Assembly (NCBI RefSeq): GCF_020697055.1
Contig: NZ_JAJFBP010000011.1
Span: 1-64,000 of the forward strand
DNA length: 64,000 nt
Source: Panacagrimonas sp.
Lineage (GTDB): Bacteria; Pseudomonadota; Gammaproteobacteria; Nevskiales; Nevskiaceae
Reading direction: 5' to 3'
Shown here: positions 61,158-64,000 of the stretch, piece by piece
Layout: each line of letters starts with the position of its first letter
Position numbering within the stretch: position 1 is the stretch's first letter
Program-made: the position numbers and the translations under genes
Notes under the pieces: generated by a model
The model's database searches: none
What the model was told of the DNA's origin: nothing
What the model saw: the letters and a program-made list of their open reading frames with translations, nothing else

Positions 61158-61955
61158 TTGGCCAAGCCCACCAGCAACCCGAAACTCAAGCTGCTCGGGT
61201 TCAACAACCTGACGAAGTCGCTGTCGTTCAATATTTACGACATCTGCTACGCGCGCACGGCAGAGCACAAGCGCGAATACATCGAGTACATCGACGAGGC
61301 CTACAACGCCGAGCGTCTGACCGCGGTGCTGACCGAAGTGGCCGACATCATCGGCGCGAACATCCTCAATGTCGCGAGCCAGGACTACGATCCCCAGGGC
61401 GCGAGCGTGACGATGCTGATCTCGGAAGGCCACCACGACGGTCTGCCGACACCGACGACGGCCAAGAAAAAGTCGATCGTGAATCACCTCGACAAGAGCC
61501 ACATCACCGTCCACACCTATCCCGAGACCCACCCGGACTCGGGCATCAGCACTTTCCGCGCGGATATCGACGTTTCGACCTGCGGCAAGATCTCGCCGCT
61601 CAAGGCGTTGAACTTCCTGATCAAGAGTTTCGAGAGCGACATCGTGGTGATGGACTACCGCGTGCGCGGCTTCACCCGCAACGTGCGCGGGATGAAGCAT
61701 TTCATCGATCACCAGATCGACTCGATCCAGAACTTCATCTCGCGCGGTATCCGCGACCGTTACGACATGGTCGACGTGAACGTGTATCAGGAGAGCATCT
61801 TCCATACGAAGATGCGCCTGAAGGAACTCGACCTGGACACCTATCTCTTCGGCGAGGGTGTGTCGGAGTTGCCGCCGCGCGAAGCCAAGCGCATCCGCGA
61901 TCGCGTCAATCACGAGATCATGGAAGTGTTCTACGGCCGGAACATCCAGCGCTGA
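61158..61955 (+). CDS. speD: S-adenosylmethionine decarboxylase proenzyme
   Basis: Makes decarboxylated AdoMet, the aminopropyl donor for spermidine. The 265-residue proenzyme (264 in E. coli) cleaves itself at Lys113-Ser114 in [16 protein letters not shown]; Ser114 becomes the pyruvoyl cofactor of the alpha chain. The E. coli-type signature [28 protein letters not shown] follows. The start is a TTG at 61158 preceded by cggaga at 7 nt, giving [32 protein letters not shown]; no ATG or GTG upstream fits. A GC-rich hairpin ends the gene. Confidence 0.96.
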
Positions 61956-61964
61956 GTCCCGTGT

Positions 61965-61987
61965 GACCGGCCGCCCATTGGCCGGTC
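61965..61987 (+). terminator. Hairpin after speD
   Basis: gaccggcc (61965-61972) pairs perfectly with ggccggtc (61980-61987) around gcccatt; only weak T-content follows, so termination is likely but unproven. Confidence 0.6.
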
Positions 61988-62038
61988 GCCTCGCGTGGGG
62001 CGTTTCCCTATGATCGGCGCTGGGGTCAGGGAGGCGGG

Positions 62039-62743
62039 ATGGGCAAGTTCCTGCGGGTGCTGCAGAAAGCCGGGCTGGTCGAGGCCGACGCGGACGACGC
62101 GTCCGCTGCGCTCGAGGCCGAGGCGCTCGCCTCGGTTCCGTCGATGCCGGACGCCGAACCGGCCGCACCCGCCACCGGGATCCTGAGCGAAGCCGAAAGC
62201 CGCATCGAGGAAAGCCGCTCGTTCGACGTGCTGTACGCCGAGCGTGGCGTGCCTGCTTCGCCGTTCCCCGCCGAAAAGCTGCTCAAGCTGGTCGACGGCC
62301 TGCGCGCGATGGAGCCGGCGGTTCGCAAGGCCGCGGTGCTCGCGATGGATTCGGCCGACGACAACTGGACGATCGACGACGCCGCGCTGGACGCGAGCCG
62401 CAAGATCAAGGCACTGAACGAGACCAAGGCGCTGCTGGTGCAGCAGGCCGCCAGCCAGGCGGCGCACGCGCAGGAGCGGCTGCAGGCCCGCGAGCAGCGC
62501 CAGAGCGAATCCCTCGCCGCCATCCGCCAGCAGATCGGCGATCTCGAGGCGTTGATGCAGCGCGAGGTCGAAAAGGCGACGGCCGAGAAGGCCTCCCTGG
62601 GCGCCGAAGCGAAATCCGCACATGAGGCGAGCCTGCGCGAGTCCGCGCGACTGGACCTCGAGATCGCGCGTCTGCAGGAAGTGCTCGATACCTTCGTCCC
62701 GCCGGCCGTGGTGCCGAGCGGCACGCCCGCGTCCCGTTCCTGA
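62039..62743 (+). CDS. Coiled-coil protein of unknown function
   Basis: A 234-residue cytoplasmic protein not recognised as a named family. MGKFLRVLQKAGLVEADADD is followed by an acidic Ala/Pro-rich segment, a compact helical part (FDVLYAERGVPASPFPAEKLLKLVDGLRAMEPAVRKAAVLAMDSADDNW, about 60-115), and a long coiled coil (about 125-225, Gln/Glu/Ala-rich, with QERLQAREQRQSESLAAIRQQIGDLEALMQREVEKA). No signal peptide or membrane helix is visible. It lies 41 nt upstream of the binding-protein gene on the same strand, so the two are likely cotranscribed. A scaffold or vesicle/stress-related role is possible, but nothing in the sequence proves it. Confidence 0.8.
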   Translation: MGKFLRVLQKAGLVEADADDASAALEAEALASVPSMPDAEPAAPATGILSEAESRIEESRSFDVLYAERGVPASPFPAEKLLKLVDGLRAMEPAVRKAAVLAMDSADDNWTIDDAALDASRKIKALNETKALLVQQAASQAAHAQERLQAREQRQSESLAAIRQQIGDLEALMQREVEKATAEKASLGAEAKSAHEASLRESARLDLEIARLQEVLDTFVPPAVVPSGTPASRS

Positions 62744-62784
62744 CGACGCGGTCGCTTTTCCTATTCAATCTCGAGGAGCCGTAC

Positions 62785-64000
62785 ATGGCACGACTCACCC
62801 CGCTCGCCAAAGGCCTGATCACGATCACCATCCTGGGCGGCGCCGCTGCGGCGGTCTGGCATCTGGGGCTGAAGGACATGTTGGGCCAGGGCGGTGCGGA
62901 CCCGGCCCACGAGGAAGCCTCGTCGGGCGGCCTGTTCGGCTCGCGCGACGACGACGACGGCGGATCGGGCGACTCCGCCAGTTCCAGCGCCGGCGGCAGC
63001 GCATCCTCGTCCTCGTCGGCCAGGTCCTCGAGCCAGGGCTCGGGATCGCTGGGATCCTCCGGCAATCCGCTGAAGGTCAGCATCGTCAGCTTCCACGGCT
63101 ACGCGCCGGCGATCGTCGCCAACGGCAAGTCGCTGACGACGCAGCCCGGCTCGATCTTCGCCAAGCAGGGCGTGAACGTGGAACTGATCATCCAGGACGA
63201 CATCCCGACGCTGACCACGATCTTCGAGTCGGGCGCCGCGCACTGCGCGTGGCGCACGTCCGATTTCTGGGCGCAGGAGCAGCCGAACCTGCGCAACTCC
63301 GGGCATGACGGTCGCGCCATCGTGATCGTCGACAACACGCAGGGCGGTGACGCGATCATCGCGCGCGATCCGTCGATCCAGAAGGTCGAAGACCTCGCCG
63401 GAAAGAGCATCGCGCTGCTGCAGTACACGCCCAGCGACGGCATGACGATCGATGCGATAGACAACTCCTCGCTGACCGCGCGCAAGAAACAGTCGGTGCG
63501 CTACGTCTACATCAACGCCGAGGAAGGCACCGCCGGCGTGCGCGCGGCCCTCGAGAGCGGCAACGTCGATGCCGCCGCGCTGTGGGATCCGGATCTCGCG
63601 CTGGCGCTGAAGAACATCAAGGGCGCGCACGTCGTCTACTCGACCAAGACGGCGACCAACCTGATCTACGACGTGATGGTGTGCGATCAGCGCCTGCTGA
63701 CGCAGCCGGCCAACCAGCCCGCGTTCCAGGGCTTCGTCGCCGGCTGGCTGAAGGGCGTCGACGCCGCCAAGAGCAATCCCGACGAGGCGGTGGACGCGCT
63801 GGTCAAGACCGAAGAGTTCTTCGGCCTGCTGGCCAAGGACGAAGGCAAGCCGTTCGTGAAGTCGCTGTTCAAGAACATCGTGTGGACCGGCCTCGAGGAC
63901 AACGCCCGCATCCTGGGCCTGGCCGGCGGCACCAACCACTACGAGCGCGTGTATCGCCGATTCGACGGCATCTACCGTACGGCCGGTGCGCTGGCCAATC
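62785..64000 (+). CDS. Membrane-anchored periplasmic-binding-protein-like protein, 3' end beyond window
   Basis: The first 405 residues are visible and the frame is open at the window edge. An N-terminal helix (LITITILGGAAAAVWHLGL) without lipobox or good cleavage site suggests an uncleaved anchor. It is followed by a Ser/Gly/Asp-rich linker (about 36-93, with a run of four Asp). A type II solute-binding (NMT1/SsuA-like) domain begins at PLKVSIVSFHGYAPAIV and includes FESGAAHCAWRTSDFWAQE, GDAIIARDPSIQKVEDLAGKSIALL and AALESGNVDAAALWDPDLALAL. From memory, similar proteins carry an OmpA-like C-terminal domain and are annotated as phosphate ABC/OmpA proteins; the present window does not reach that far. 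The start is ATG 62785 after gaggag. Confidence 0.85.
   Translation, partial: MARLTPLAKGLITITILGGAAAAVWHLGLKDMLGQGGADPAHEEASSGGLFGSRDDDDGGSGDSASSSAGGSASSSSSARSSSQGSGSLGSSGNPLKVSIVSFHGYAPAIVANGKSLTTQPGSIFAKQGVNVELIIQDDIPTLTTIFESGAAHCAWRTSDFWAQEQPNLRNSGHDGRAIVIVDNTQGGDAIIARDPSIQKVEDLAGKSIALLQYTPSDGMTIDAIDNSSLTARKKQSVRYVYINAEEGTAGVRAALESGNVDAAALWDPDLALALKNIKGAHVVYSTKTATNLIYDVMVCDQRLLTQPANQPAFQGFVAGWLKGVDAAKSNPDEAVDALVKTEEFFGLLAKDEGKPFVKSLFKNIVWTGLEDNARILGLAGGTNHYERVYRRFDGIYRTAGALAN

Follow-up and report, generated by a model that had tools for sequence, protein, structure and literature searches.

A Conserved Operon of Panacagrimonas and Other Bacteria Encoding a Predicted Wall-Anchored Receptor, an ABC Transporter and a PspA/AAA+ Pair

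At the end of the window analyzed here (the whole stretch of 64,000 nucleotides, G000:C69:1-64000, from a Panacagrimonas genome), a gene for a helical protein (A) is followed by a gene for a solute-binding protein (B) that runs past the last position. The original prediction, made from the window, regarded this pair as the front of an undescribed system and left it to the genes further downstream whether that system would be a transporter, an envelope sensor or a stress system. The contig continues to position 105523, and seven further genes (C to I) were found after B, all on the + strand and closely spaced, which gives a nine-gene operon with intergenic gaps from A to I of 41, 26, 28, 1, 11, 28, 124 and 24 nt. 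After I, from 71150 onward, the genes lie on the opposite strand. The features are as follows.

61158-61955: speD (TIGR03331 adenosylmethionine decarboxylase), ending 83 nt upstream of A
61967-61989, between speD and A: perfect inverted repeat of 8 bp, GACCGGCC-GCCCATT-GGCCGGTC, read directly
62039-62743, + strand: gene A, 234 aa, predicted cytoplasmic helical/coiled-coil protein
62785-64000 in the window (ending at 64524), + strand: gene B, 579 aa, fusion of a solute-binding and an OmpA domain, predicted to be membrane-tethered
62803-62859, + strand: N-terminal membrane helix of B (aa 7-25, from hydropathy)
62872-63063, + strand: Ser/Gly/Asp-rich linker of B (about aa 30-93)
63064-64000 (running on to about 64074), + strand: NMT1/SsuA-type solute-binding domain of B
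64180-64455, + strand, past the window end: OmpA domain of B (aa 466-557; PF00691, E = 1.8e-13)
64551-65363, + strand: C, ABC permease of the NitT/TauT type
65392-66216, + strand: D, ABC ATPase
66218-67078, + strand: E, two-helix membrane protein with long helices
67090-67962, + strand: F, predicted heme-oxygenase fold, without a sequence family
67991-68701, + strand: G, PspA/IM30 (PF04012)
68826-70667, + strand: H, AAA+ ATPase (PF00004)
70692-71147, + strand: I, TerB-domain protein

Third-position GC is strong in both A and B (0.88 and 0.91, respectively), and their placement 41 nt apart on the same strand was confirmed. Protein A has no transmembrane helix and fits no named family. Its conserved N-terminal motif, FPAEKLLRLLDGLRAMD...AMDAADD.W, had been missed in the original prediction; 36 aligned relatives give the consensus FPAEKLLRLLDGLRAMDxxTRKAAVxAMDAADDxWxIxD, after which a variable region follows. 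Judging from sequence, this variable region is probably a coiled coil. A shows weak matches to many coiled-coil families, and its heptad signal is modest (38 of 500 shuffles score as high), so that the earlier description of A as a cytoplasmic coiled coil holds for the lack of a membrane helix and is plausible for the coil.

The architecture proposed for B was recovered in full: a basic start precedes the hydrophobic helix, the linker varies in sequence among relatives, the receptor domain matches NMT1/SsuA-like proteins, and the guess that the C-terminus would carry an OmpA-like domain was borne out beyond the window. The helix is kept in all 53 full-length relatives, only two of which have a Cys in the first 40 residues; this makes lipoproteins improbable in nearly every case, and we infer that the helix is uncleaved. 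In the OmpA part, which also has a Cys pair, D504 and R519 are conserved in at least 97% of the 53 relatives and correspond to the Asp and Arg expected at a peptidoglycan site, and the domain is predicted to bind peptidoglycan.

As for the borders of the operon, the 8-bp inverted repeat lacks a T run and may mark a transcript boundary. Sigma-54 (PspF-like) promoter patterns occurred 71 times versus 70 expected, the 83 nt between speD and A containing no such pattern, and sigma-70 promoters were found 0 times versus 0.7 expected. Among the loci examined, only those of this genus have speD close to the operon, and it is probably outside the system.

To what extent do these genes belong together? 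Using B, we scanned 84,980 species genomes and obtained 57 loci, in each of which A to I were located by BLAST and profile search (counts include this genome). A was counted in the 50 loci with room upstream and C to I in the 43 loci with 9 kb downstream. A directly precedes B in 49/50 loci, indicating that the pairing, as originally expected, is not due to chance, and C, D and E follow B in all 43 loci. G and H are present in 38 of these, I in 29 and F in 13. Gaps between the operon genes are short or overlapping across loci. The most frequent arrangement, ABCDEGHI, occurs in 24 loci, and ABCDEFGHI was observed in six, this genome among them. In Propionivibrio aalborgensis (L036), A has been relocated behind I and has kept its link to the operon. 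Upstream DNA is shared by close relatives only (62/946 pairs), which argues that either selection or transfer as one block has preserved the gene order.

The hosts are Gamma- and Betaproteobacteria, Myxococcota and Desulfuromonadales. The same-genus relative G001 is Panacagrimonas perspica, which belongs to the order Nevskiales rather than to the Lysobacterales assumed originally. The operon is rare in both its order, where full-length B was detected in this genome and one congener only (41 genomes), and its phylum, where E was found in 2 of 398 genomes, one of the matches being weak. The tree of B largely follows the host groups; the Desulfuromonadales loci L055 and L057 group with the betaproteobacterial (Rhodocyclaceae) loci L036 and L084 (98/92 support), which suggests horizontal transfer of the operon.

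In protein D the motif set of an active importer ATPase is complete, and C is an ordinary permease. The solute-binding domain of B, C and D are all of the NitT/TauT/Ssu type, and the domain of B is nearly invariant (79% mean column identity in 25 relatives), which points to one fixed ligand. A fair rival, which we nevertheless think somewhat unlikely, is therefore an ordinary importer of a small molecule, sulfonate-like or similar; the OmpA tether would then merely keep the receptor local, PspA, AAA+ and TerB would guard the membrane from side effects, and F, whose predicted fold is used by oxidative enzymes, would oxidize the imported compound. However, no known substrate family reaches its cut-off: the B receptor scores 67 bits against SsuA_fam (cut-off 163.5) and the permease scores 147 against TauC (cut-off 342). 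All curated scores being this far below their cut-offs, import of a known substrate was rejected. The closest solved structures to the receptor domain are sulfonate- and nitrate-family receptors that cover only part of it, so the ligand of B cannot be named. Moreover, the operon has no recognizable catabolic pathway genes, and A and E, both helical, are retained as consistently as the transporter. The original prediction would have been refuted by an ordinary permease and ATPase for a known substrate; both kinds of gene do follow B, but with these low scores, and the operon runs on with PspA, AAA+ and TerB.

The latter genes form the second part of the operon. Structure matches link G to Vipp1/PspA and H to CDC48-type AAA proteins. 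The AAA domain of H contains Walker A, Walker B and a GR-D motif, whereas residues 1-320 of H lack a P-loop (an inactive N-terminal half). A second PspA-family gene is present in the host outside the operon (G000:C40:588-1238, L098), on a 3.4-kb contig. The AlphaFold2 model of E (pLDDT 80.9) gave no informative fold match. Homology of E to ESCRT-III/Snf7 was considered and rejected: hhalign gave a probability of 1% against G, no Snf7 Pfam match was seen for 38 members among the matches listed, and ESCRT-III was not among the 50 best PDB fold matches.

In a PDB fold search with the AlphaFold2 model of F (pLDDT 89.8), the 48 best hits were heme-oxygenase-like dimetal enzymes and TenA proteins, headed by PolF, UndA, CADD and TenA (probability near 1.00, E-value only about 1e-3, TM 0.5-0.6), while a sequence search against solved structures gave no match. 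Known heme-oxygenase-like dimetal oxidases usually have an HxxxDxxH spacing (a His-x3-Asp-x2-His helix); F shares the predicted fold of PolF, UndA and CADD, but this helix was not seen in it, and enzyme activity can thus only be proposed for F. Nine residues are invariant (D100, E101, H181, E185, D189, H222, H231, E239 and H242), and these acidic and His residues would fit a metal site. The usual ligand set of these oxidases is three His and three carboxylates (review, PMC13108848).

The most reasonable hypothesis, to which we assign a probability of roughly 0.5, is that the genes form an ATP-driven envelope-maintenance operon of two parts coupled to a wall-anchored receptor. The gene order, domains, intact catalytic motifs and co-conservation on which it builds are observed directly. 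The first part would be a NitT/TauT-type ABC transporter with its receptor held in place, the inner-membrane helix and the OmpA-peptidoglycan anchor keeping the solute-binding domain near the permease. The second would be a cytoplasmic membrane-remodeling pair, PspA (an ESCRT-III-like polymer) and its own AAA+ ATPase, joined by TerB and, in some species, by the heme-oxygenase-fold enzyme. Ligand capture, or the mechanical state at the wall, might be relayed by the ABC complex and by A and E, the helical proteins, so that PspA polymers are recruited to the inner membrane or taken apart there. In this way, ATP-driven repair might be coupled to a damage-related small molecule being imported or sensed; the topology and the physical coupling are inferred. 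Support for this hypothesis comes from the domains of the nine genes, their conserved order, the link of A to the operon kept in L036, the conserved OmpA Asp/Arg, the ABC and AAA motifs and the Vipp1/PspA and CDC48-type structure matches. The second PspA of the host and the lack of detectable ESCRT-III homology in E count against it.

The distribution of the two parts bears on this hypothesis in both directions. Four long loci (L045, L061, L064 and L075) contain A to E without adjacent G and H. In two of these (genomes G784 and G787, Myxococcota), homologs of G and H are encoded elsewhere in the genome, which favors envelope maintenance by both parts. Three genomes carrying A to E (G785, G786 and G788, representing the other two long loci and L054) have no G match, these being metagenome bins that may be incomplete, and G404 contains F-G-H-I alone (L090:9004-13015), with A to E not nearby and no B match elsewhere in the genome beyond a plain OmpA domain. 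Both cases count against the hypothesis: the transporter front and the remodeling part are separable, yet tend to travel together.

Related clusters with SBP-OmpA receptors, a vWA protein and a TM-plus-coil protein were identified in three other genomes (G020, G222 and G259):

L092:1676-10879: two SBP-OmpA receptors, TelA-type protein, NitT/TauT permease and ATPase
L091:7678-15741: two SBP-OmpA receptors, TelA-type protein, NitT/TauT permease and ATPase
L024:6152-12870: two SBP-OmpA receptors, with an AAA+ ATPase beside them on the opposite strand

The TelA-type protein, permease and ATPase belong to the G222 and G259 clusters (PF05816 was confirmed in G259 only, whose cluster has a further soluble SBP), and the AAA+ ATPase to that of G020. 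L091 and L092, and in part L024, thus resemble the present operon in their receptors and TM-plus-coil protein, and the first two also in their NitT/TauT-type permease and ATPase, but have TelA and vWA in place of PspA, AAA+ and TerB. Proteins of the TelA, TerB and vWA kinds are part of the tellurite/Ter stress repertoire. The receptors of these clusters match B only partially, at 25-29% identity, and E matches the corresponding protein of the TelA clusters with only 15% probability, which leaves homology between E and the TM proteins uncertain. These clusters suggest a common front of wall-tethered receptor and ABC transporter with exchangeable cytoplasmic stress modules.

The occurrence of this receptor design alongside TelA and vWA in the related clusters, together with the unusual double tether of B, would also suit an ABC complex that acts as a sensor. 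BceAB-type transporters signal to their kinases; by analogy, the wall-anchored receptor might report a ligand or the membrane-wall distance, and D might signal to A/E and the PspA module. We consider this unlikely, given the full set of active-importer motifs in the ATPase D and the normal character of the permease C. A role in anti-phage defense is very improbable. H is weakly similar to IetA, and the OmpA part of B to ZorB, but these matches rest on shared AAA and OmpA domains; PADLOC gave one weak partial match for E and none for the other four proteins, and a search for plasmid-borne copies of B found none. With generic domain matches only, defense was rejected.

A bolder form of the envelope-maintenance hypothesis is that an ESCRT-III-like PspA/AAA+ machine takes its gating signal directly from the wall-anchored receptor and its ABC complex, that stress modules (PspA/AAA+/TerB or TelA/vWA) are exchanged by lineage, and that an O2-using enzyme treats a captured damage-derived molecule. 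We regard it as quite unlikely; if true, a signal would be turned into repair across the bacterial envelope. The operon, in which PspA is accompanied by its own AAA+ ATPase, a transporter and a putatively wall-fixed receptor, bears on how PspA-type ESCRT-III polymers of bacteria are turned on and off. The main text of Ravi et al. (2024) calls it unknown how PspA homologs without an AAA partner regulate assembly (PMC11237479). Because the operon is present in named isolates (Panacagrimonas perspica, Tahibacter aquaticus and Acidovorax soli), the proposed link between sensing, transport and remodeling is directly testable.

Compared with known systems, the operon shares its receptor domain, permease and ATPase family with the TauABC/SsuABC (NitT/TauT family) importers, but differs in its OmpA-fused receptor with a predicted membrane tether and in the absence of sulfonate enzymes. 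With the classical pspABC envelope-stress system it has a PspA/IM30 protein in common, but it lacks PspB, PspC and PspF, and G scores 22.8 versus 242.95 bits for the PspA equivalog. OmpA, TerB and substrate-binding partners are not mentioned in Popp et al. 2022 (PMC9239133), and literature searches found no further papers on the operon besides Ravi et al. The claim of an undescribed system must be narrowed accordingly: the core (PspA, AAA+, ABC ATPase, permease and PBPB/OmpA protein) has been known as a gene neighborhood since 2024 (Ravi et al. 2024, PMC11237479), whereas gene A, the heme-oxygenase-fold protein F and TerB were not found in the main text of that paper, nor were co-conservation counts, module separation or the TelA counterpart. 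There, the core is treated in a few sentences, with OGG56892.1 as the named example, and membrane remodeling linked to transport is suggested, in line with our preferred hypothesis of coupled envelope maintenance. The "Snf7 homolog with a TM segment" described in the main text may or may not correspond to E, which shows no ESCRT-III similarity here. Two features of the published core recur in the present operon: the PspA-family protein with an AAA+ partner of inactive N-terminal half corresponds to G and H, and an ABC ATPase, a permease and a solute-binding protein with an OmpA domain stand together in both.
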